Position numbers and translations under genes: made by a program | Part shown: positions 14,840-26,418 of the stretch, piece after piece | Layout of the letters: every line of letters begins with the position of its first letter | How positions within the stretch are numbered: position 1 is the first letter of the stretch | The notes under the pieces: generated by a model | Databases searched by the model: none | What the model was told of the DNA's origin: nothing | The model's input: only the letters and a program-made list of their open reading frames with translations | Virus record (IMG/VR): IMGVR_UViG_3300034120_000574 | Location: 1 to 35,975 of that record | Direction: 5' to 3' (one strand) | DNA: 35,975 bases | Source: a virus

Positions 14840-16714
14840 TTATGAGTTTTGTATCACAAGCCAGTCATTATTATATAGGTTTACTGAATTTTCGGACAAG
14901 GTTATGGAAGATCCGCTGGTTTGATAGGACTGCCTAGAGGTATATAAATCATAATGATTAATAATCTTATTATAATCTAATGAATTTTGGTAAAATGACA
15001 TATATTGATATAGAGCCTTTACCGATCCATTAGATTTATGATTTATAGTTAATTCCCCTTCTACTGGCTCCGTTAAGTTAATGACTACATGATATAAATT
15101 ATTATATTTAAATATATTAGAAATATTAGTTTCTGGGGTCGCATCCACACCATTTACGTATATAGAGTCAATATTATCTTTATTGACATTTCCTAGACTA
15201 TCCCAATAATACCCAGTTTCTGTTGAATCTTGTAAAATTAATCCGCTAAATTTAGGAAGTAGGTCTACCACTTCTGCTGGGTTTACGTCTATAGTTTCTG
15301 TATTTGGATTAATTTCAGCATTAATAACATTGTTTTGAGATAAAGGAATGTTTACAATTTCTGCATCGGTTACTGGAAGCAGGAAAAATGGGGTATAAAA
15401 AAACTCAATGCTTTTTATTTTATTAGTTAAATTAATTTTAAATCCAGATTCGCTTGGCGATAATATCCCATTTCTTAAATCTCTAGATACAACTGAATAT
15501 TTTTTTGATCCCAAATAGTATTCTAAATTTTCAATTTTGGATAAATACCCTGATCCATTTTTTGAATACATAATTTGATTATTATAAAAGCTAATATTTA
15601 AATTATATAATTTTGGTAAATATTTAGATATATCTTCAGAAGAGATTGTTATTCTTATATTTAAAAGTCTACTATCATTAAATTCTAAAGAATTATATTG
15701 TGGTATAGATTCTCCATTTGAACATAAAAAATAATTTATTCCGTCTGTGCTAGTTTCTACAGTAACTCCACTGTCTCCAAACCAATCTATTTTTGAAGAA
15801 TTCATTGTTATTGCAGCTGGCAAAAATATAGTGTCTTCTAAAACAATACTTTTTTCTTCTGGGATTTCACTACTTTTTATTTGTATATATTGATTTGTTT
15901 GATCATAATAAAGATCTTCTGTTATTAATTCTTGCCATGATCTATTAAATGGATATGAATATGAAAAAACTTTACTAATGTCTGTATCATAGAACTCAAA
16001 AATTTCTCCGTTGTCAGATTGTGATATTTGTGCTGGACTGGTGTAACTATCATTTAAATAATGATCTAAAATTTTTGTACTTGGTAGCCCATATCTATAT
16101 ATTGCTACATCATCTATCAAAAAAGTATCTTGTGTGTCAGATGTAGGGCCAGATGATATTAATACTTGAGTATTTGTAAATGGATTGCCTTCTATATTTT
16201 TACTAATACATAATATGCCGTCTATATAGATATGAGCCTCTTTGACTAAATAAACACATACAATGTGAATTGATTTATTTACATATGGAAGATTATACTC
16301 TAAAGACTCTTGGTCTAATTTAAAAATTATATTTTTATCTTTATAGAATATTCCAATATTTTTAGAAGCATCTCCAAGTATTTTTGTTATTTTATCCGTA
16401 TATATTTTAGGATATATCCAGCATTCTAATGTAAAATCATTATCTCCGTAATAAACTGTGCCGAATCCTCCTGGGAAATTATTCTGGTAGTACCCGTTTA
16501 TTATTGGAAAATTTATATTATTGTCTGAATTAACCTCTAAACAGTTTTGTCCGCCTAATGATAATGGTATCATTTTGGTTGATGTATCAAAAATTCCACT
16601 ATATGATGCATCATTATTGCATCCAGAAAAATCTTTTAGCGTGCCATTTTGAGCACTATCAAGTGTCCAGAATCCTATTGGGTTATCTTTCATAACCATT
16701 AATTTATTAGACAT
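14840..16714 (-). CDS. LamG-like (concanavalin-like) virion or adhesion protein
   Basis: 624 residues with no signal peptide or TM segment. Residues about 12-215 fit a LamG/concanavalin A-like jelly roll: PIGFWTLDSAQNG, FTLECWIYPKIYTDK, IHIVCVYLVKEAHIYIDGIL and FLIDDVAIYRYGLPSTKI (a common closing motif, 'DDVAiY...Ls...i..hy'). These domains bind sugars or proteins. The rest is beta-rich without a known motif and Asn-rich; it may be a further carbohydrate-binding or trimeric part. The gene stands alone behind a promoter ending six bases before its ATG. Its place after the oxygenase operon and before the head operon suggests a receptor-binding or head-decorating role, which is inference. Confidence 0.7.
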   Translation of the reverse strand: MSNKLMVMKDNPIGFWTLDSAQNGTLKDFSGCNNDASYSGIFDTSTKMIPLSLGGQNCLEVNSDNNINFPIINGYYQNNFPGGFGTVYYGDNDFTLECWIYPKIYTDKITKILGDASKNIGIFYKDKNIIFKLDQESLEYNLPYVNKSIHIVCVYLVKEAHIYIDGILCISKNIEGNPFTNTQVLISSGPTSDTQDTFLIDDVAIYRYGLPSTKILDHYLNDSYTSPAQISQSDNGEIFEFYDTDISKVFSYSYPFNRSWQELITEDLYYDQTNQYIQIKSSEIPEEKSIVLEDTIFLPAAITMNSSKIDWFGDSGVTVETSTDGINYFLCSNGESIPQYNSLEFNDSRLLNIRITISSEDISKYLPKLYNLNISFYNNQIMYSKNGSGYLSKIENLEYYLGSKKYSVVSRDLRNGILSPSESGFKINLTNKIKSIEFFYTPFFLLPVTDAEIVNIPLSQNNVINAEINPNTETIDVNPAEVVDLLPKFSGLILQDSTETGYYWDSLGNVNKDNIDSIYVNGVDATPETNISNIFKYNNLYHVVINLTEPVEGELTINHKSNGSVKALYQYMSFYQNSLDYNKIINHYDLYTSRQSYQTSGSSITLSENSVNLYNNDWLVIQNS

Positions 16715-16750: not shown

Positions 16751-17353
16751 TTACCAAAATTTCTCTTTAAACCAAAAAAGAGGTATCATATATTTTAAAC
16801 CAGATTTTGTTGGTTTTGGATCATGCATATATGGCTGATAAGATGGAAAAATTACTAAGCTTCCAGCAGATGGCTTAATCTTAATTCCTTGATTTGGAAA
16901 CTCTATTTCTCCACCCTCATAATCATCGTTTAAATAGAATACCATTGAAATTGATGGTTGCTTAATGTTATAAATATCTTCCGTATCTACGTGAGGACCC
17001 ATGTATGCACTTGTATTATATTTTCTTATTGTAAAATGGTCTGGCATGTACCCAGAATCTTGATTAGTTTTTTTACAATAATCCTCTACACAAAAATCTA
17101 TTAAGTTTTTAAGAGTTTTTGCAATAATAAAAGAACTTGATTCTTCATTACAATTATTTAATATATTTGTAAATGAAGCCTCTCTAAATTCTCCATATAG
17201 CACATTTGCATTACTAGCATACCATGGCTTCCAATTAGAAAAAATATTTGCATTTTCTTGTTCTACATCATTAATTAAATTAATAAAATGATTTAAATCA
17301 TCAATTAAATTTTCATAATATACAACATTATCACATAGTATTGTTGTTTTCAT
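16751..17353 (-). CDS. 2OG-Fe(II) oxygenase, prolyl 4-hydroxylase type (sixth of six)
   Basis: 200 residues. The family uses 2-oxoglutarate, O2 and Fe(II) to hydroxylate proline or other side chains. The double-stranded beta-helix is intact: iron ligands H121-x-D123 (GPHVDTED) and H177 (YMHDP), with K187 in the place that binds the 2-oxoglutarate carboxylate. YLNDDYEGGEIEF and KPSAGSLVIFPS are hallmark motifs. It has no leader peptide, so it acts in the host cytoplasm. It overlaps the upstream gene by 23 bases and is the last gene of the eight-gene operon. It is nearest the simplest catalytic core, without extra domains. The substrate is unknown. Confidence 0.88.
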   Translation of the reverse strand: MKTTILCDNVVYYENLIDDLNHFINLINDVEQENANIFSNWKPWYASNANVLYGEFREASFTNILNNCNEESSSFIIAKTLKNLIDFCVEDYCKKTNQDSGYMPDHFTIRKYNTSAYMGPHVDTEDIYNIKQPSISMVFYLNDDYEGGEIEFPNQGIKIKPSAGSLVIFPSYQPYMHDPKPTKSGLKYMIPLFWFKEKFW

Positions 17354-18149
17354 TATTTTTCATTTTTTCTGAATACTTTATTTGTTTTCCATCTTCAAAA
17401 TAAAGCATTGCTTCTGGCATTTCTCTTTTAATTCTTTCTTCTTCTATTTTAAGCCATTCTCTAGGTCCATAAATTTTTTGACTATTTAACCAAGATTGTG
17501 ACCCGTCTGAAATATAGGTAATAAAGTTTCTTACAAAAAACTTTTCTCCTTTTTTAATTGTTTTTACTCCATGAAAATATGGTGGCACTGAAGGGAAGAC
17601 TAAAATGTCTCCCGCTTTTGGCTTGTGTGAAACAAATTGTCCATCTATAAAAAATTCAATATCTCCACCATCATAGTCGTCATTAATGTATGTTGTGCAT
17701 GTTAAAAAAAACTTTGAACCTGGCCATTCAGCTTCAAATATTTTAAAATCTGTGTGATACTGCATTGCTAGATTATTTTCTAAAACATCTAAATCTTTTT
17801 TATATTTTGAAAATGAGGAAGACATTAATTGCGCTCCCTCTGGCATAACAACATTATTGTTTTTTATATATTCATTTATTGCAATGTTATATGCTTCATA
17901 AACACTATCAGATAAAAGTTTTTCTTTATCATACATTTCGCCATACTCTCTAGCTTCTGAATCTTCGTGTTTTTGTTGAGTATAGGTTCCAAAAACTGAC
18001 CACTTATCCCATTTTCTTAAATAGTATTTGCCATCAGATGTTTTTTCAGATTCTTTCATAGTTTGATATAAATCTTCTACATTTGGCAATAAATTTCTAT
18101 ATACCTCTATTTTTGGATAAATTACTATTCTTTGATACTGGTTACTCAT
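17331..18149 (-). CDS. 2OG-Fe(II) oxygenase, prolyl 4-hydroxylase type (fifth of six)
   Basis: 272 residues. The catalytic core is complete: H132-x-D134 (QYHTDFK), distal H193 (YFHGV) and a basic residue about ten later (K203), with YINDDYDGGDIEF and KPKAGDILVFPS. Residues 1-110 form a helical N-terminal part which may select substrate, with WDKWSVFGTYTQQ and an acidic segment. The C-terminal 60 residues are helical and Glu/Lys-rich. It differs clearly from its neighbours, so it is an old paralog. The start overlaps the previous stop by four bases (ATGA). Hydroxylation of a phage virion protein is possible but not shown. Confidence 0.87.
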   Translation of the reverse strand: MSNQYQRIVIYPKIEVYRNLLPNVEDLYQTMKESEKTSDGKYYLRKWDKWSVFGTYTQQKHEDSEAREYGEMYDKEKLLSDSVYEAYNIAINEYIKNNNVVMPEGAQLMSSSFSKYKKDLDVLENNLAMQYHTDFKIFEAEWPGSKFFLTCTTYINDDYDGGDIEFFIDGQFVSHKPKAGDILVFPSVPPYFHGVKTIKKGEKFFVRNFITYISDGSQSWLNSQKIYGPREWLKIEEERIKREMPEAMLYFEDGKQIKYSEKMKNNENNNTM

Positions 18150-18880
18150 GCATTTTTCTCCTTTTCGTATTTACTCTTATATGTTGGAATTATTCCATTT
18201 TGTCTATCTTGTTCCCATTTTTTATACATTAAATCTTGTTCTGATCTTATTCCCTTTAGTTCCACTTCCCATTTAGCTTTTTCTTCATCTGTGTAGACTG
18301 CATCTGCATCGTCCCAAAATGATCCAATAGTATATCTCTCTCCATTTTTAACTGTAGTTACTTCGTGCTCATTCTTATATCCACCTTTAAATATTGAAAT
18401 CATTCCAGTTTTTGGTTTTATATTAATTGGATAATGTTCAAAATTTAAATTTCCACCATCAAAATTATCATTTAAATATAAAAATATTGCATATTTACTT
18501 CTTTGAAATGCTGTAGGGTTACCGTGTTCATCAGAGTTATCGGAATGAAATCCTGCAAATGCTCCTTCTGTCCATTTTTGTGCATGATAACTAATTTCAG
18601 ACAGCTTATTGTTAAAACAAATTTCTCCAGCATTTTTTATTTTTTCTTTAAGGCTGTGAAAATATTTTGGGTCAAAACCAAACGGAATTAAATTATTATC
18701 ATATTCCCAAAAACCCATAGCATACGATTCATAAAAAGAAATTTGATTCCATTTTATGTAATCATTCTGCACAGACATTTCTAAATAATCTATAATTCTT
18801 TTGCATTCGTCTTCATTTAAAAAGTTATCTATTGTAAAAACATCGTCTTTATGTTGTTTTATATCATACATTATTGTCAT
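18146..18880 (-). CDS. 2OG-Fe(II) oxygenase, prolyl 4-hydroxylase type (fourth of six)
   Basis: 244 residues. Ligands are H112-x-D114 (FHSDNSD) and H172 (NEHEV), with R182 (NGERY) for 2-oxoglutarate. YLNDNFDGGNLNF and KPKTGMISIF are conserved. The N-terminus VFTIDNFLNEDECKRIIDYL is the usual start of this enzyme group, where the helix caps the fold. The C-terminal extension is helical. It starts 17 bases inside the previous gene. All catalytic residues are present, so the enzyme should be active. Confidence 0.87.
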   Translation of the reverse strand: MTIMYDIKQHKDDVFTIDNFLNEDECKRIIDYLEMSVQNDYIKWNQISFYESYAMGFWEYDNNLIPFGFDPKYFHSLKEKIKNAGEICFNNKLSEISYHAQKWTEGAFAGFHSDNSDEHGNPTAFQRSKYAIFLYLNDNFDGGNLNFEHYPINIKPKTGMISIFKGGYKNEHEVTTVKNGERYTIGSFWDDADAVYTDEEKAKWEVELKGIRSEQDLMYKKWEQDRQNGIIPTYKSKYEKEKNA

Positions 18881-19583
18881 CCTTTAATTTAGTTATGGTC
18901 CAAAACCAAGGAGATGTGTATCTACATCCTTCTTTAACAACATTAACCCCGTGAATATAATTCATATCTCCAGGGAAAAAATATGCTGCTCTAGCTTTTG
19001 GTTTAAATGATATATTTTGTTTTGGAAAATGTAACTCCCCGCCTTCATAGTCATCATTTAAATAAAATATTGTTCCTAAATCGTACCATGGGAAGTCATT
19101 TTCTTTTCCTGCGTCTGGGCCCTCGTGTAACTCTTTATCTGCATGGGGGAATTGATATGTTCCTTTTGGCCAACGTACAATAGCTGGGTGGGTAGACATG
19201 GCCTCTACATTATAAAATGATTCAATAACAGGTTTTAATCTATCTATAATATTTCTTAGCATTAGAACAACATCTTGATTTGCTTTCATTAAAGTATTAA
19301 GTGTGGCTACTCTATTTTCCCATACCCTATGATCATAAATTATTGTTCCATTTTCATTATAATGGGATTCTGTAACATCCCAAATTTTATTATTTTTAGC
19401 AAAATTTAATAAAAATTCTTGTTCTTCATTTGTTAAAAAGTTTTCTATTTCTTGTATCATATCTGAAGATGATCCGAAATAGCCAGAAGGTGTTATTGAT
19501 TGCCTTGCTGTTCTAATATACTTATTATCGTTTATAGAATCAACATTTTGAATTATGTCTTTTCCTTTAGCGTTTTCAAACAT
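18864..19583 (-). CDS. 2OG-Fe(II) oxygenase, prolyl 4-hydroxylase type (third of six)
   Basis: 239 residues. Ligands are H147-x-D149 (FPHADKE) and H211 (YIHGV), with R221 (GCRYTSPWFW). YLNDDYEGGELHF and KPKARAAYFFPGD are conserved. The N-terminal 60 residues hold IQEIENFLTNEEQEFLLNFA, the cap helix typical of the group. AGGAGG sits five bases before the ATG. The gene follows the second non-enzyme gene after a gap of 9 bases. The WRPKG-like VRWPKGTYQFPHAD segment before the HxD motif is typical of prolyl hydroxylases. Confidence 0.88.
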   Translation of the reverse strand: MFENAKGKDIIQNVDSINDNKYIRTARQSITPSGYFGSSSDMIQEIENFLTNEEQEFLLNFAKNNKIWDVTESHYNENGTIIYDHRVWENRVATLNTLMKANQDVVLMLRNIIDRLKPVIESFYNVEAMSTHPAIVRWPKGTYQFPHADKELHEGPDAGKENDFPWYDLGTIFYLNDDYEGGELHFPKQNISFKPKARAAYFFPGDMNYIHGVNVVKEGCRYTSPWFWTITKLKDDNNV

Positions 19584-19592
19584 ATGTGCCTC

Positions 19593-20327
19593 CTATTTAT
19601 ATTCCTTTGGTACCCAAATATTTTTTTTATAAATTCCTCCGCCTTTTACTCTAAAATTTTTAGCAGTCTTAACGTGTTTTTTTACCATTTCTTTTTTTTC
19701 ATGAAGGACTGGATCCATCGACCAATCCTCTCTTTTAAATGGAATTACTTGTGCATACGGAGTTCCTTTTGGAATTAACCCGACAAAATCATTTTTTAAA
19801 AAAAATGGAATAAGGCCAGATATAGTATACATATCACTATCTATAATACCATTAGTTGTTAAAAATGGTAAATCAAATCTATTAAGGGGATTTAAAACTA
19901 ATAAGCTATATCCTTTGGGGGTCTCCATAGCCCAATTTGGCCACCAATGAAAATGAGTTTCTCTATATCCACTTGGTACCACAAACTCTGGCATTTTTTC
20001 TCTTCTTGCACAAAACTCTTCATATCCTTTTGGCGTTTCTACGTATATCTCACCTTTATATTCGTAAAAAGCTAAATCACATGGAGTTTTTAAAAGATAC
20101 CCTAAAGAAAATGAATCTAGTAACGCTGGGCAAGACTTAAATCCAAGTCCTCTTTCTCCAAAATTATCAGTTACATAAGATCCATCATCGTTTTTCCAAT
20201 ATTTACTTGCTTGGGAAAACCAATTGGGAATGCTTAATTTTGCTGGTACTGGCAAAAAGTCTTTTGAGTCTTTGTTATATGGCCTTGAAGAATGAAAAAT
20301 AATTTTATTCATTTTTATTATTAACAT
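19593..20327 (-). CDS. Uncharacterised protein in oxygenase operon, distantly DUF6065-like
   Basis: 244 residues, no catalytic motif recognised. It contains ILFHSS-like start (KIIFHSSRPYN), PVPAKLSIPNWFSQASKYW, an LKTPCDLAFYEYKGEIYVE segment, HFHWWPNWAMETPKGYSLLV and VGLIPKGTPYAQVIPFKRE. The order, a Cys-Pro helix, a beta-rich middle and a final 'ipkGtpyaqviPf', resembles the next gene's arrangement and similar proteins in marine phages, often with oxygenases. It may fold as a cupin-type beta barrel, but that is a guess. It overlaps the previous gene by 23 bases from ATG 20327; ATG 20312 would reduce this to 8 and gives MNKIIFHSS as a natural start, and neither has a clear ribosome site. Confidence 0.55.
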   Translation of the reverse strand: MLIIKMNKIIFHSSRPYNKDSKDFLPVPAKLSIPNWFSQASKYWKNDDGSYVTDNFGERGLGFKSCPALLDSFSLGYLLKTPCDLAFYEYKGEIYVETPKGYEEFCARREKMPEFVVPSGYRETHFHWWPNWAMETPKGYSLLVLNPLNRFDLPFLTTNGIIDSDMYTISGLIPFFLKNDFVGLIPKGTPYAQVIPFKREDWSMDPVLHEKKEMVKKHVKTAKNFRVKGGGIYKKNIWVPKEYK

Positions 20328-21009
20328 AAAGTCTTATTGCTTTTACTTCATGCTCTCCTATTTTTTGACCTTTATAGTTTACTGCATCTCTGTAAAAATT
20401 AGTCCACTTACCGCTATCTGTTTTTTCTTTAACAATTTTAACGTGCTCTTCTTCTTTTAAAACTACATTATTTTTTATATTTTTATAATTGTCAATTTCA
20501 ATTATAGAGTTTTGTAAATATGATAAAGATATTGGAACAATTGATATAAATGGTTGATTAGCTTTTATAGTAATTTTTGTAAAAGGTTTAGTAATTCTTA
20601 ATGCACAGGGAAACTCTCCTTTAAAAAATGATGTACTTATAATTGTAGTAAATGCTTGTGCCCCATCTATAAACATATTTGGAACTGGCATTTGTAACAA
20701 ACTAACATCTTTATCTGTTTCAAATACTATTCCAGTTTTAAAACTTATTGTTGCATTAGCTCTTTCTGTATAGCAGTATTCTTCGCCTTCTAATATTTTA
20801 ACATGATTTCCAGATGTGTCTGATATTCCGTCCCATACAAAAGAAATATCTTTTGGAAATGAAAGGCCCCACCCTAAGCCATTTGCTAATGTTACTGGAA
20901 AACACTTATATGCATGACCATCTACTGTATTGTCCATCCAGTCTCTTTTAATATTTATTTGAGAAATATTTGCAGAGTTATTATTTTTATAGGCTGTAAC
21001 TTTATACAC
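20305..21009 (-). CDS. DUF6065-family protein in oxygenase operon
   Basis: 234 residues. The line KRDWMDNTVDGHAYKCFPV followed by TLANGLGWGLSFPKDISFVW and a WDG motif fits DUF6065 as I remember it: a 'RDWMD..t..r.AYrClPl.iAN..GW' start, then beta strands with GI-F-T and KPFTKITIKANQPFISIVPIS near the end. No function is known to me for DUF6065. The start is GTG overlapping the previous stop (TAGTG). It lies between hydroxylases 2 and 3 in the same operon, so it likely works on the same substrate or pathway. I do not see a metal site. An HMM search with the family would decide the assignment. Confidence 0.62.
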   Translation of the reverse strand: MYKVTAYKNNNSANISQINIKRDWMDNTVDGHAYKCFPVTLANGLGWGLSFPKDISFVWDGISDTSGNHVKILEGEEYCYTERANATISFKTGIVFETDKDVSLLQMPVPNMFIDGAQAFTTIISTSFFKGEFPCALRITKPFTKITIKANQPFISIVPISLSYLQNSIIEIDNYKNIKNNVVLKEEEHVKIVKEKTDSGKWTNFYRDAVNYKGQKIGEHEVKAIRLYVNNKNE

Positions 21010-21704
21010 TATGCATAATTTTCTGTATATTTTTTTTCTATTTCTCTATATTCTGGAGTATGTGGTGCTTCTAGATAGTCTAACATAGTTACTATAGAAT
21101 ACTTAACACCTTTTGTGACTGGCATAGCTGCGTGAGAATATATATAAGATGAAGGAAATAGGTATAGATCGCCAGCCTTTGGTTTAATTTTTAAATTAAA
21201 TTTATCAAAAAATAACTCTCCGCCTTCATAATCGTCATTTATATATCCGACTGATGAGAGCACACAGATATAAGAATATCCGTGATCAGAATGAACTTGG
21301 AAATGTTGATCTTCTCCGTATTTAACAAAATTAAAGGATTCCCAATAATTTAAAGGAGCAAGCCCAAACATTTTGCTATAGTCTTTAACTGGATCTATCT
21401 GTGCTACGTATGAATCTTCCCAAATTTTTTCTAAAGCATATTCAGTTTCTTTTTTATTTTCTGGGGGGACGCTTTCTCCGCCTAGCATCAAATATCCATT
21501 AGGATTACTTTTTATTTTAAAATCGGCACAATCTCTATATCTTTTATCTTCTAGATTATATCCTGTTTTTGCAGTTTTCCATTTATATGGGTTGTTTTCT
21601 TTTGATAATTCATTTTCTAATCTTGCAACTAAATTCATTGACTCTGTAAAAACATTTCTATAGACCATAATTCCTGGTGCTAAGTATTCTGCATTTTCTA
21701 ACAT
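21009..21704 (-). CDS. 2OG-Fe(II) oxygenase, prolyl 4-hydroxylase type (second of six)
   Basis: 231 residues. Ligands are H138-x-D140 (VHSDHGYSY) and H191 (YSHAAM), with K201 (GVKYS). NYWESFNFVKYGE, YINDDYEGGELFF and KPKAGDLYLFPSS are shared with the next upstream gene (21705-22322), so the two arose by tandem duplication and then diverged. The HxD motif is followed by HGYSY, which may affect substrate choice. It starts directly at the previous stop and ends overlapping a GTG start by one base. All catalytic residues are present. Confidence 0.88.
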   Translation of the reverse strand: MLENAEYLAPGIMVYRNVFTESMNLVARLENELSKENNPYKWKTAKTGYNLEDKRYRDCADFKIKSNPNGYLMLGGESVPPENKKETEYALEKIWEDSYVAQIDPVKDYSKMFGLAPLNYWESFNFVKYGEDQHFQVHSDHGYSYICVLSSVGYINDDYEGGELFFDKFNLKIKPKAGDLYLFPSSYIYSHAAMPVTKGVKYSIVTMLDYLEAPHTPEYREIEKKYTENYA

Positions 21705-22322
21705 TTATACTCCTTTATGATGCTTATCGTTATAATCAAACATTGTTACTATCGAATATTTTGTACCAGATTTTATTGGTAGCGATTTATGAGAATATAT
21801 AAAAGAAGATGGGAATAAGTATAATTGCCCAGCTTTTGGTTTAATGTATATGTTTAATTTTGGAAAATATAATTCGCCACCATCATAATTATCATTTAAA
21901 TAACCTACTCCAGAAACTGTACAAACATATGCGTCGCCGTGATCTGAGTGCTCTTCAAAATGATGACCCTCTGTATATTTAACAAAATTAAATGATTCCC
22001 AATAATTTAATTTAATATTATACATACTTGAATAGTCTTCTAAACATTCCTTTTGAGCATTATAAGAGTCCTGCCAAATAGATTGTAATTCTAGACTACT
22101 TTTATTTTTTATAATAGAAAAATTATTGGATTTTGCAATTTTAAAATCTAAACAATTTCTATATTCTGGAATTTTTTTCTTCCATCCTACCATTGCTTCT
22201 TTCCAGGAATATATTCCGTTGCTTTGTTTTATTGTACTCTCTACTCTTTCAATTAAATTAAGAGAATCTGGAAATACGTTTTCATACAGCCAAATACCAT
22301 ATCCTACTTCTATTTTTTGCAA
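21705..22322 (-). CDS. 2OG-Fe(II) oxygenase, prolyl 4-hydroxylase type (first of six)
   Basis: 205 residues. Ligands are H125-x-D127 (EHSDHGDAY) and H178 (YSHKSL), with K188 (GTKYS). YLNDNYDGGELYF and KPKAGQLYLFPSS match the close paralog downstream. It is the first gene of the operon; the start is TTG at 22322, preceded by AGAAAG and a promoter with near-consensus -35 and TGC-TATAAT. The stop of the proline-repeat Hint protein gene is only 58 bases upstream, so substrate and enzyme genes, if they are that, adjoin. The active-site residues are complete. Confidence 0.88.
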   Translation of the reverse strand: MQKIEVGYGIWLYENVFPDSLNLIERVESTIKQSNGIYSWKEAMVGWKKKIPEYRNCLDFKIAKSNNFSIIKNKSSLELQSIWQDSYNAQKECLEDYSSMYNIKLNYWESFNFVKYTEGHHFEEHSDHGDAYVCTVSGVGYLNDNYDGGELYFPKLNIYIKPKAGQLYLFPSSFIYSHKSLPIKSGTKYSIVTMFDYNDKHHKGV

Positions 22323-22348
22323 AATAAATTCTTTCTACTAGTTTATTT

Positions 22349-22377
22349 ATTATAGCAAAATAATCTAAAAATGTCTA
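22349..22377 (-). promoter_or_regulatory. Strong promoter of the oxygenase operon (extended -10)
   Basis: Minus strand TAGACA (22377-22372; 5 of 6 to TTGACA), 17-base spacer, TATAAT (22354-22349) preceded by TGC. The predicted leader is about 20 bases. This is the best promoter in the window and gives the oxygenases their own expression level. Confidence 0.75.
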
Positions 22378-22379
22378 GG

Positions 22380-22871
22380 TTATTTATTATGCGTTAATAT
22401 GCCATTGGCATAAATTAAATCATATGGTTCTGCGTTGAAGGTATGAACAGTACATTCTTCGGTAATTACCTCTAAAGATATAATTTCTTCTGAAATAATA
22501 TTACCGTTCGAATCATGTTTAGATAATATGTCTCCAACCTGAATTGATCCAGCCAAAATAAAACTATTTTGTCCGTTTCTAGTAATAAACATTGGATGCT
22601 CTGCTGTAAACCTAGAAGAAGGATCATTATTAATAATAATTGTTTCTTCTGCTAGAGAAGTATATTTATTAATAACTTCTGTTTTTACCAGCTCTCCAAA
22701 TGTTGCTGTTGGACTTGACCAAAATAATGATGAATAAGCAGCTTCATCTGCTGGCAGTTCTTGAATATCTACTGCCCATATCCAGTCACCTTCTTGAACA
22801 TCTTTTGCTGATTTATACTCAATAGAATCATTTTCACCAACAACTGTTACTGGCGTGTCATCATGTAAGCA
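22380..22871 (-). other. Hint (intein-like) autoprocessing domain, codons 291-453
   Basis: Intein/hedgehog-type module of about 163 residues at the extreme C-terminus. Conserved parts: N-terminal C-L-H-x-D-T-P, TAEH (block B), and a final T-H-N-K. No endonuclease insertion. A bacterial intein-like domain with no C-extein, expected to break the bond before C291 by N-S shift. Confidence 0.8.
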
Positions 22872-23741
22872 TTTGCTAAAGTATGGTGGGCCAAAGAATC
22901 TTGGAGGTGCAAAGAATCCTGGAGGTGCAAAGAATCCTGGAGGACTAAAGAATCCTGGAGGACTAAAGAATCCTGGAGGTGCAAAGAATCCTGGAGGTGC
23001 AAAGAATCCTGGAGGTGCAAAGAATCCTGGAGGTGCAAAGAATCCTGGAGGTGCAAAGAATCCTGGAGGTGCAAAGAATCCTGGAGGACTAAAGAATCCT
23101 GGAGGACTAAAGAATCCTGGAGGTGCAAAGAATGACGGTGGAGAAAAGAAAGTAGTTACTGAGTTCGTGGAAGCACCAGTAGATGTTCCATTAGCATTAA
23201 TTGCATAAACGGTATAACTTTGTGTCTGCCCACCAGTTTCGTCAATATTACGTGATGTGACTGTAATATTTTCATATGATGGCCCATCACTTGATACAAC
23301 GGTATATGATGAAATTGCTTTACCGCCAGTTTCTGGGGCAGTCCATGTAACATCATCTCTGTTTGCTACAGAAGAAGATACTGACGGAGAAACTGGTGCC
23401 TGCGGTACTGTAGTTACCAATATAGATGAAGATGGGTCTGAAGATACAGAGTTTCCGTATGAATTAGTTCCATAAACTGTAAATGTATAACTTGTATTTG
23501 ATGCTAGTCCAGTCATTGTTAATGGAGAAGACGACCCACTAACTGTCAATCCTGTAGGACTTGAAGTTACTGTAAAAGAAGATGCTTCTGGTGATCCTGC
23601 TGGCAATTCAAAAGAAATAATAGCGGATCCATTATTATATGCTCTTCCCGTTCCTACATCTGAAACAGAATTAATTATTGGTTTTTGCGGCTCTAAGAAA
23701 TCGTTTGTCGCTTGTGATTTTCTACCAGATCTTTTGCTCAT
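22380..23741 (-). CDS. FN3 / Pro-Pro-Gly repeat / Hint self-processing surface protein
   Basis: 453 residues. Residues about 17-112 and 113-197 are two fibronectin type III-like domains (VYGTNSYGNSVSS and SYTVYAINANGTSTG are FN3 endings). Residues 198-287 are 15 units of F-F-(A/S)-P-P-G, with variants at the ends (PPS, PPR, PPY). Residues 291-453 are a Hint (hedgehog/intein) domain: nucleophile C291 in CLHDDTPV, T379-A-E-H382 in block B, and C-terminal ANGILTHNK with H451-N452. The protein ends at K453, one residue after the HN, with no Cys/Ser/Thr extein residue, so it should cleave, not splice. It likely releases or links the FN3-repeat part. Probably a virion-tail or head-fibre protein acting outside the cell. 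AAGGAG precedes the ATG. Confidence 0.85.
   Translation of the reverse strand: MSKRSGRKSQATNDFLEPQKPIINSVSDVGTGRAYNNGSAIISFELPAGSPEASSFTVTSSPTGLTVSGSSSPLTMTGLASNTSYTFTVYGTNSYGNSVSSDPSSSILVTTVPQAPVSPSVSSSVANRDDVTWTAPETGGKAISSYTVVSSDGPSYENITVTSRNIDETGGQTQSYTVYAINANGTSTGASTNSVTTFFSPPSFFAPPGFFSPPGFFSPPGFFAPPGFFAPPGFFAPPGFFAPPGFFAPPGFFAPPGFFSPPGFFSPPGFFAPPGFFAPPRFFGPPYFSKCLHDDTPVTVVGENDSIEYKSAKDVQEGDWIWAVDIQELPADEAAYSSLFWSSPTATFGELVKTEVINKYTSLAEETIIINNDPSSRFTAEHPMFITRNGQNSFILAGSIQVGDILSKHDSNGNIISEEIISLEVITEECTVHTFNAEPYDLIYANGILTHNK
22881..23150 (-). repeat. Tandem 18-bp repeat encoding (F-F-A/S-P-P-G) units, 15 copies
   Basis: About 15 copies of an 18-base unit with almost no base difference beyond an A/S codon switch (GCA vs AGT). 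The unit order from the N-terminus is nearly mirror-symmetric (A, S, S, six A, S, S, A). The repeats keep frame when copy number changes by one, so length variation by slippage or recombination would not break the protein. Confidence 0.95.
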
Positions 23742-23754
23742 TTATAATATCTCC

Positions 23755-26418
23755 TTATGCCTTAAGATCTCCGTATACTACCCAAGAGTTGGTTGCTCTC
23801 TTGAATAATGTACATGATGACCATTGAGTACGTAATTTTAATCCAGGAGTAGCATTTACAGTTACCCCAGTATCTCCTGCAATTGTAATTAAGCCAGTAT
23901 TTGTACCAAGTATATCTAGAGTTGTTCCAATTGGATAAGCAACTGCTGAGTTAGTTGGGATTGTTATTGTTACTGGGCTTGTAGAATCTACCTCTATTAA
24001 TGAGTCTCTTTCAGATAGTTCAGATAATGTGTAGTTTGCAGTTTTTGAAATAATTGGAGTTCTTGAAGGAACGCCTTCTTTTGTTTGGGTACCATCTGAA
24101 AATGCTACTCCAGAAGATGCTGTTATTACTCCTGAGAATGTTGGTGCATTTTCTACTGCAATTGTTGCACCATCCTTTGTAATGTTTGTGCCAGCAATTA
24201 CTGCCTCAGAAGCATTAAACTGTACGTAGCTAATATTTGTAGTTCCGATTGTAATTGTTCCTGTTGTACTAACAAGGAAGCCTTTAGAACCATTTGATGA
24301 GCCAGATGTTACGAATACGAAGTCTCCAGTTGAAACTTCTCCCGCAGGACTATTATCGCTGTCTGCTGCACGAGTAATTTGCCAAGGATTTGAACCATCT
24401 CCTACAGCGGTAATTGTGTAAATACCATTTTCTTTAGCATCAGTTTGTGCACGAAGAAGAATTCTATCTCCTACAGCAACTGCTGCTCCGTCGATAGTTC
24501 CTATAGATCCATTTGTTGCTTTTGTTAATGTTGCTCCCACTCCAGAAGTACCATTGTTATATGTTCCAGCAAGGTTTCCTGCAGTTGCTGCAATTACTGG
24601 TTGATGAAAGTTAATTCCAGCTGCAAGTCCATCAACATACTGTTTAGTTACTGCGTGGAGATCTGACGTAGGTGCACCTGAAAGTGTTAGTGCTCCTGTC
24701 ATTGTTCCACCAGCAAGTGCTAGTTTAGCGTCTAAAGCTGTTTGTGTAGCAGTTGATACTGGTTTGTTGGCGTCAGATGTATTATCAACATTTCCTAATC
24801 CAACCATTGTTGCTGTAATTCCTGTTGCTGTTGTTGTTACTGAAAGCGTAGGTATTGTTACGGTACCAGTAAATGTTGGTCCTGCTATATTAGACTTTAA
24901 ATTGTCTGCGTCGTCTACATATGTCTTTGTAGCAAGAGCAGATGTGTCTGCAATACCGTGTACAGATGTAGTTGCAGAATTGTGATTGGAAACTGCTGTT
25001 CCTAGATTTGATGCCGTGGTGATTGCTTCTTGAGTTACAGCATTGTCTGCATATGTTTTTGTAGCAAGAGCAGATGTGTCTGCAATACCGTGAATATTTG
25101 TAGTATCTGATTCGTGGGTTGAAACAGCGCTATCTGCATATGTTTTTGTAGCAAGAGCAGATGTGTCTGCAATACCGTGAATATTTGTAGTATCTGATTC
25201 GTGGGTTGAAACAGCGCTATCTGCATATGTTTTTGTTGCCAATAAAGATGTATCTGCAATACCATGAATATTAGTTGTATCAGATTCGTGTGTAGATAAG
25301 TCAGTTGATGACGCCTTACTATTTAATTGTGTTTGTATAGAAGATGTAACGCCGTCTACATAATTAAGTTCTGTTGTAGATAATGTTGCACCGTAAAGTA
25401 TATTTAACTCTGTAGCGCTTGCTGTTAAAGGCACATCCTCATTAATTTTAGGGGAATTTAAAGTTTTGTTTGTAACGGTTTGTGTTCCATCTGTTGTAAG
25501 AAGCTTAGATGTGTCTGCAATACCATGAATATTTGTAGTATCTGATTCGTGGGTTTGAACAGCTCCAGTAGTAAAGCTTTCTAGCGTACTTTGTAATGAA
25601 TCTAAATTATCTAGAATTGCTAATTCTTTTGAATTTGCTGCTCCATAATTAGCTACCCATTTATCATTTACTTCATCCCATTGAATAAATGCTGGTAGTG
25701 AAGATCCTCGTCTTACAGAGAATGCAGCACTAAGAGTCGGAGCTCCAGTAGATACATTTGAATTTAAAATAATTTCATTATCTTCTACAAGAAGTTCTGC
25801 AGTATTTAATGTTGTTGTATCTCCAGAAACTGTCAAATTTCCAGGAACTACTAAATCTCCAGAACTTGTAAATACTGCTACTGTTCCTGTAGCATTTGGA
25901 AATGTAATTGTTTGATCTTCTGTAGGATTTGTTACTGTAAGGGTTGTTTCATATGCGTCTGCAGATGATCCCTCTAAAATAATGCTTGATTTTGGAACCA
26001 ATAAGTTTCCATCGACATCTAACTTTGCTGGTCCGCCTGCGTTACCAACATCTGCTAGTAATACATAATCTGCTGCTGCTGCGTTGTCTAATCCAGTTAT
26101 TTGATCATCGACATAAGATTTAAGTGCAACAACTGATGAGTCAATATTAAGAGAAATTGTATTTGTGCCATCATTGTAAGATTTTGTAAGACCTGCTCCC
26201 ATTGAAAGTGCTGAGTCGATTGCATCTTGTGCAATTTCTGTAATTCCTGGTGCATCTGATGCAATGTATGCAAGGCTAGTCCATGCTGTGTTGCCAGTTC
26301 CAACTTTAATTTTTCTGGTGTCTGTTTCAACACCCATTTCACCTGCGGCTAATGTAGGATTTGCTGAGGTCCATTCTGATGCTGTTCCTCGTCTTACTTG
26401 AATTCTTACTGTTGACAT
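23755..26418 (-). CDS. Tail fibre protein, large, with repeat segment
   Basis: 887 residues. The N-terminus STVRIQVRRGTASEW and NPTLAAGEMGVETDTRKIKVG is a phage tail-fibre/tropism-determinant start that binds the baseplate. Residues about 190-270 (NLTVSGDTTTLNTAELL...DEVNDKWVANYG) match a module in the 29496-31073 protein. Residues about 315-365 (ELNILYGATLSTTELNYVDG) match a module in 26885-28492. Residues about 370-457 are three 29-residue repeats (STHESDTTNIHGIADTS). The middle ALTLSGAPTSDLHAVTKQYVDG and the NGIYTITAVGDG segment are common in phage fibre proteins. The C-terminus has a beta-type tip. No signal peptide. Adhesion or host recognition is the likely role. Confidence 0.85.
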   Translation of the reverse strand: MSTVRIQVRRGTASEWTSANPTLAAGEMGVETDTRKIKVGTGNTAWTSLAYIASDAPGITEIAQDAIDSALSMGAGLTKSYNDGTNTISLNIDSSVVALKSYVDDQITGLDNAAAADYVLLADVGNAGGPAKLDVDGNLLVPKSSIILEGSSADAYETTLTVTNPTEDQTITFPNATGTVAVFTSSGDLVVPGNLTVSGDTTTLNTAELLVEDNEIILNSNVSTGAPTLSAAFSVRRGSSLPAFIQWDEVNDKWVANYGAANSKELAILDNLDSLQSTLESFTTGAVQTHESDTTNIHGIADTSKLLTTDGTQTVTNKTLNSPKINEDVPLTASATELNILYGATLSTTELNYVDGVTSSIQTQLNSKASSTDLSTHESDTTNIHGIADTSLLATKTYADSAVSTHESDTTNIHGIADTSALATKTYADSAVSTHESDTTNIHGIADTSALATKTYADNAVTQEAITTASNLGTAVSNHNSATTSVHGIADTSALATKTYVDDADNLKSNIAGPTFTGTVTIPTLSVTTTATGITATMVGLGNVDNTSDANKPVSTATQTALDAKLALAGGTMTGALTLSGAPTSDLHAVTKQYVDGLAAGINFHQPVIAATAGNLAGTYNNGTSGVGATLTKATNGSIGTIDGAAVAVGDRILLRAQTDAKENGIYTITAVGDGSNPWQITRAADSDNSPAGEVSTGDFVFVTSGSSNGSKGFLVSTTGTITIGTTNISYVQFNASEAVIAGTNITKDGATIAVENAPTFSGVITASSGVAFSDGTQTKEGVPSRTPIISKTANYTLSELSERDSLIEVDSTSPVTITIPTNSAVAYPIGTTLDILGTNTGLITIAGDTGVTVNATPGLKLRTQWSSCTLFKRATNSWVVYGDLKA
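25046..25306 (-). repeat. 87-bp tandem repeat in fibre gene (three units)
   Basis: Units begin at 25046, 25133 and 25220. The first two are nearly identical and the third is diverged, giving 29-residue repeats. The period keeps reading frame. A related partial unit is found at 24908-24962, and one at about 25505-25560. Confidence 0.9.

Follow-up and report, generated by a model that had tools for sequence, protein, structure and literature searches.

We report a probable protein-modification operon in a 36-kb virus record (IMG/VR record IMGVR_UViG_3300034120_000574, positions 1 to 35,975, hereafter the window), in which a gene for a phenylalanine- and proline-rich (Phe/Pro) repeat protein is followed by six genes for 2-oxoglutarate- and Fe(II)-dependent (2OG-Fe(II)) oxygenases. 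All genes and domains located below are on the minus strand unless stated otherwise. The region (16751–23741) is probably dedicated to the post-translational hydroxylation of a fibre-associated Phe/Pro-repeat protein. This reading is built on the genes themselves, their catalytic motifs, the fold of one enzyme group, the co-occurrence of oxygenases and repeats across viruses, their joint gain and loss, and the position of the repeat gene behind a tail-fibre-type gene; from these we infer the substrate link and the chemistry. The pairing of the oxygenases with the repeat protein was strongly supported.

The repeat protein (22380..23741), the proposed substrate, comprises an FN3 domain (residues 36–105, 23427..23636; PF00041, E = 2.7e-8), an uninterrupted tract of 15 FF[ASG]PPx units (residues 198–287, 22881..23150), which is the proposed hydroxylation target, and an intein-like C-terminal domain. 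When the residues of the protein were shuffled, at most 2 such units were obtained in 2000 trials, against the 15 observed. The sixth residue of the unit was Gly in 12 cases and Ser, Arg or Tyr in the other three. A previous interpretation made from the DNA letters alone (the sequence-only reading) had described 15 F-F-(A/S)-P-P-G units in a protein encoded just before the operon; the number and the position hold, but the closing Gly is not universal and the protein contains two domains besides its repeats. The bacterial intein-like (BIL/Hint) domain (22383..22871), which follows the repeats directly and runs from Cys291 to ...THNK, found its best solved match in 2lwy, itself a bacterial intein-like domain (E = 2e-4), and matched PF14890 below the cut-off of that family. 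It opens with Cys and closes with His-Asn plus one residue as BIL domain proteins do, but here it follows, as a fusion, an FN3 domain and Phe/Pro repeats encoded by a fibre-linked phage gene. Relatives have short Cys-rich or other tails in its place. An opposite-strand open reading frame (ORF) across the repeats (22855–23208) was discarded as merely their complement. Some other records encode two different FFxPP-repeat proteins (L041, and also L017 and L043 from the same contig).

The six oxygenase genes were assigned to five main ortholog groups and located at 21705..22322 and 21009..21704 (both group 0; PF13640, E = 1.2e-11 and 2.3e-12), 18864..19583 (group 1; E = 1.7e-6), 18146..18880 (group 2; E = 1.1e-10), 17331..18149 (group 4; E = 6.6e-7) and 16751..17353 (group 3; E = 1.1e-11). 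All six passed the curated Pfam cut-off for PF13640 and kept, in alignment, the HxD...H iron triad and the Lys/Arg for 2OG, confirming that they are intact enzymes of the prolyl 4-hydroxylase (P4H) type as had been read from the sequence, and HxD..H..R/K was likewise kept in 446 of the 455 members of the ortholog groups. The structure of one of the six, the group 0 enzyme at 21009–21704, was modelled (predicted local distance difference test score, pLDDT, of 95.5) and showed the double-stranded β-helix fold of prolyl hydroxylases; its best solved matches (2jig, 3gze, 5hv0, 6f0w, 5c5t and 4iw3) span algal, bacterial, hypoxia-inducible-factor-type and PBCV-1 viral prolyl hydroxylases, which act on protein, and 3gze was solved with a (Ser-Pro)5 peptide. 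The sequence profile of the group 0 enzyme agreed with the fold result, and the window oxygenases are putative peptidyl-proline hydroxylases. Five of the six matched phrog_61, and the 21009 gene matched 179 phage records, mostly of Synechococcus phages, at an identity of about 27–38%. The PHROG families 2297, 274 and 3531, labelled DNA endonuclease, endonuclease V and ferrochelatase, also matched oxygenase domains here, and these labels are probably wrong, judging from the sequence matches. The 18146–18880 protein had a weak, sub-cut-off match to the YhhC family of oxygenases of ribosomally synthesized and post-translationally modified cyclophane peptides.

We then searched viral sequences with a DNA pattern for two FF[AS]PPG units, which was blind to oxygenases, and obtained at least 120 loci. 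The FFxPPG, FPFFPP and GPxGPx scans each gave at least 120 loci with near-copies included, and the counts and rows are not independent events. An oxygenase was present within the fetched DNA in 104 of the 120 listed FFxPPG loci, and a whole-record search added one for 14 of the remaining 16 (one of them below the Pfam cut-off), giving 118 of the 120 listed, while the last two records were fragments of 7–8 kb. Random-pattern controls had an oxygenase in none of 38 loci and in 2 of 25 whole records. Among the loci listed for the other patterns, any oxygenase was found in 96/120 for FPFFPP, 17/120 for collagen-like GPxGPx and 24/66 for TPFGF, and arrays of at least three were found in 79/120 for FFxPPG, 80/120 for FPFFPP, 0/120 for GPxGPx, 1/66 for TPFGF and 0/38 for random patterns (Fisher test on arrays by repeat class, about 1e-33, with rows not independent). 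The sequence-only reading had suggested looking in other phage genomes for the co-occurrence of such repeats with multi-oxygenase arrays, and its claim of a link between the enzymes and the repeat protein was thus borne out. Of 172 loci, 167 had their nearest oxygenase within 1.5 kb of the repeat and 155 had it on the same strand, and each of the 29 large repeat records tested carried 3–15 PF13640 genes. No relative of the window's portal was found in 8 of these 29 records, and therefore more than one phage lineage probably carries the array and the repeat. The repeat was found on different scaffolds and its motif varied (FFxPPx, FPFFPP), with the oxygenase array persisting. A five-residue FFxPP pattern without the Gly gave mostly out-of-frame matches, with real repeats only in L218, accompanied by two oxygenases. 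The repeat pattern was found in no cellular genome; a nucleotide search and tblastn with the repeat protein gave no match in cultured phages, where the BLAST filter for low-complexity repeats means that absence is not shown. A T4-portal search was silent everywhere, controls included, and was uninformative.

The surroundings of the repeat gene point to the virion fibre. The gene order on the minus strand was glycosyltransferase, ribonucleotide reductase, several fibre-type genes, a tail-fibre-type gene, the repeat protein, two oxygenases, a DUF6065 gene, a phrog_7084 gene, four oxygenases, a LamG-type gene, a small gene, portal, protease, capsid and tail genes. The tail-fibre-type protein (23755..26418; PHROG tail fibre and structural matches), immediately upstream of the repeat gene, ends in ...WVVYGDLKA, and a GDLxA ending of the gene preceding the repeat gene was present in nearly all of the commoner endings of FFxPPG loci and many of those of FPFFPP loci, but was absent among the listed endings of upstream genes in collagen loci. 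These neighbours and the tail-fibre-type gene support, without proving, an assignment of the repeat protein to the fibre. The LamG-type structural protein (14840..16714; PF13385) closes the island and is conserved next to the portal, with a counterpart at the same position in Streptomyces phage Coruscant. Among cultured phages, the portal was closest to those of Streptomyces phages of the Stanwilliamsviridae (55–58% identity), and Coruscant and Wakanda share the order glycosyltransferase, ribonucleotide reductase, ..., small gene, portal. By its related portal and shared gene order the window falls provisionally with this family. These cultured relatives lack the island and have only an endolysin or LysM gene in the slot after the reductase, and the fibre, repeat and oxygenase block of the window is therefore an extra, variable island. 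We infer that the host is likely a freshwater actinobacterium. In the same variable region, several oxygenase-free portal relatives (L297, L302, L304, L305 and L314–L316) encode genuine collagen-like GPSGPSG proteins.

As a phylogenetic control, 80 loci were fetched by the portal alone, and those with enough upstream DNA were kept and clustered at 97% portal identity; the oxygenase and repeat states were coded by the analyst. Both were present in 12 portal clusters and neither in 14, while none had the repeat only and 3 had an oxygenase only (p = 1e-5). In two of these three, a gene for a TPFGF repeat protein lies shortly beyond the flank that was fetched. The oxygenase state changed about 7 times on the portal tree, and in 7 independent pairs the repeat followed the oxygenase in 6, did not differ in 1 and opposed it in 0 (sign test, p = 0.031).

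The sequence-only reading took the Pro-Pro-Gly repeats as the target by the logic of collagen. On a strict collagen-type model, the enzymes would act as classical X-Pro-Gly prolyl 4-hydroxylases with the FFxPPG tract as a collagen-like substrate. Although Pro-Pro-Gly closes 12 of the 15 window units and collagen-type prolyl hydroxylases are among the nearest fold relatives, the FFxPPx unit does not have Gly at every third residue as in Gly-X-Y, and its Gly varies freely. In 128 distinct repeat ORFs, for which the Phe-Phe-x-Pro-Pro core was the search criterion, the sixth residue was Gly in 858 of ~1,570 units and otherwise S, R, A, V, L, F, N or others. Since arrays are common beside FFxPPG and Gly-free FPFFPP repeats, where they are equally large, and none of at least three was found among the listed GPxGPx loci, the array goes with Phe/Pro repeats and not with collagen, and we rejected the X-Pro-Gly model, which is highly improbable here. 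Oxygenase arrays in phages without any Pro-Pro-Gly protein, which the sequence-only reading had named in advance as grounds for giving up the narrow claim, do exist, but beside other Phe/Pro repeats.

The remaining alternatives leave the repeat protein out of the reaction. Phage 2OG oxygenases have been proposed to serve host nitrogen/2OG metabolism or DNA repair, in cyanophages (PMC3037559) and again for cyanophage S-SCSM1 (PMC9602691), and cyanophage homologs are scattered, often near helicase/primase genes; the window enzymes would then be auxiliary metabolic genes for 2-oxoglutarate use or DNA repair, placed incidentally beside the repeat gene. This is quite unlikely, as it predicts neither the tie to Phe/Pro repeats nor the joint gain and loss, the five catalytically intact ortholog groups exceed the needs of a 2OG sink, and the modelled enzyme has the fold of prolyl hydroxylases whose targets are proteins. 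Somewhat less remote, though still improbable, is a reading in which the enzymes hydroxylate either a different virion protein from this block, be it the LamG protein or the upstream tail fibre, or a cell-surface target, and the repeat protein is a mere neighbour: the repeat gene is flanked by the tail-fibre-type gene, the LamG gene closes the island, and in S-SCSM1 a block of seven annotated oxygenases flanks a pair of tail-fibre genes, of which one contains RxP-type repeats, but oxygenase-free portal relatives keep LamG and fibre-type genes and have no Phe/Pro repeat. The repeat and enzyme genes might also travel together in a single variable adhesion cassette with no action of one on the other. 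This would suit an island whose variable slot, bounded by the ribonucleotide reductase and LamG genes, holds only endolysin/LysM in the cultured Streptomyces relatives. We consider this unlikely, given that the link holds across scaffolds, whichever side of the array the repeat gene occupies, and in records where the window's portal family was not found.

Several points weigh against a dedicated hydroxylation operon. One relative, L313, carries just one oxygenase and lacks a Phe/Pro repeat, and loci of the TPFGF class keep the repeat gene but in most cases have no more than one or two PF13640 genes, along with other enzymes. The cyanophage homologs mentioned above often lie near helicase/primase genes and not near a repeat gene, we know of no cultured member of the system, and the reading does not by itself account for five or six paralogs. 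A proposal that the 17331 oxygenase reads Gly-containing units (present in 48/51 vs 12/26 loci, p = 4e-6) was rejected, the association being lost under phylogenetic pairing. Finally, the genes are adjacent and cassette transfer could partly explain their joint gain and loss, though probably not all of it, as the changes of scaffold and gene order argue.

On the hydroxylation reading, the phage would make a tail-fibre-linked protein with a core of tandem Phe/Pro repeats (here FFxPPx), and the P4H-type oxygenases would hydroxylate residues of the repeat, most likely prolines, inside the infected cell, either ahead of virion assembly or while it proceeds. Different paralogs may carry out 3- and/or 4-hydroxylation at different prolines, and the modification may determine how stiff, soluble or sticky the fibre element is. 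Once the repeat segment is finished, the intein-like domain might cleave or transfer it, and the two DUF6065/phrog_7084 proteins may have a helper role. A broader version, which we put forward tentatively as possible, is a widespread phage-encoded multi-enzyme pathway in which one Phe/Pro-repeat fibre protein would receive hydroxylations of several kinds and become a hydroxyproline-rich, adhesive-like virion material, followed by intein-like processing, with the enzyme sets diversifying along with the motif.

Related systems are known in other viruses and in cells. Mimivirus encodes a repetitive structural protein, collagen, plus its hydroxylase, as is proposed here, but that system is a lysyl hydroxylase/glucosyltransferase acting on Gly-X-Y collagen in a giant virus. 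The PBCV-1 prolyl 4-hydroxylase (5c5t) is also a virus-encoded P4H-type 2OG oxygenase of the same fold (match E = 4e-9), whereas its virus is a eukaryotic giant virus and the phage carries an array of six. To our knowledge, PBCV-1 has a single enzyme with no dedicated repeat gene beside it. The title of Eriksson 1999, as cited in PMC7019647, names peptide substrates and 4-hydroxyproline in viral proteins for this enzyme. Cellular enzymes (Bacillus anthracis 3itq/5hv0, Pseudomonas putida 4iw3, Chlamydomonas 2jig/3gze) share the catalytic residues and fold, but are single enzymes and not a paralog array in a structural-gene block. Among phages, 14 of 16 cyanophages carry several 2OG oxygenases (PMC3037559), S-SCSM1 has 24 such genes, whose functions were not specifically investigated (PMC9602691), and how viruses use prolyl 4-hydroxylase was termed cryptic in a Baltic Sea study (PMC9301287). 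The cyanophage sets (phrog_61; T4-GC 104/240/412/611) share with the window the superfamily, the phrog_61 profile, many paralogs per genome and, in some cases, a place beside tail fibres, but metabolic roles have been proposed for them and their identity to the window enzymes is low. In the S-SCSM1 locus (L260), the short tail fibre among the genes flanked by the oxygenases has RQPRNFRQPR-type repeats. No Phe/Pro-repeat partner was found in the cyanophage regions inspected, and an extension to all cyanophage oxygenases was rejected, most inspected regions being without a proline repeat. The sequence-only reading had taken a six-member array beside its possible repetitive substrate to be undescribed. 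Multi-member oxygenase sets are in fact on record for phages; what appears to be new is the dedicated repeat partner, which was not described for phage oxygenases in the limited collection of literature searched.

Two further genes are interleaved with the oxygenases. The protein at 20305..21009 passed the DUF6065 cut-off (PF19541, E = 3e-28; 99 bits against a cut-off of 26.6), and that at 19593..20327 matched only phrog_7084 (E = 3e-30), of which the DUF6065 gene is a weak paralog. A model of the latter (pLDDT 91) showed a dUTPase/dCTP-deaminase-like β-clip fold, with dCTP deaminase and dUTPase as the best solved matches (E = 4e-4) at modest template modelling scores of 0.3–0.6. GIIDxD and GxPxxQxIPF were conserved in the phrog_7084 alignment and may resemble a dUTPase motif. 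One to three DUF6065/phrog_7084 genes were present per locus with at least four oxygenases and a distinct repeat protein. Haloviruses such as HF1 also carry phrog_7084 homologs, and no oxygenase was found in the inspected region. The literature searched, a limited collection, did not mention DUF6065. The portal relatives L275, L285 and L347, sister phages with a TPFGF repeat protein, have an enzyme island of another make-up: besides 1–2 PF13640 oxygenases it holds a number of DUF6065-like genes, one gene resembling a short-chain dehydrogenase and additional oxygenase-like genes.

Among the genes of aquatic phages that still lack an explanation, 2OG-Fe(II) oxygenases rank with the commoner ones, with up to 24 per genome (PMC9602691). 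The present data point to a specific physical class of substrate for them, the tandem Phe/Pro repeats of a fibre-associated protein, and speak against collagen, which was the obvious model. If this is true, phages post-translationally hydroxylate their own adhesion parts, a virion chemistry that would be invisible to genome annotation and that standard proteomics searches would miss unless +16 Da on proline is allowed.

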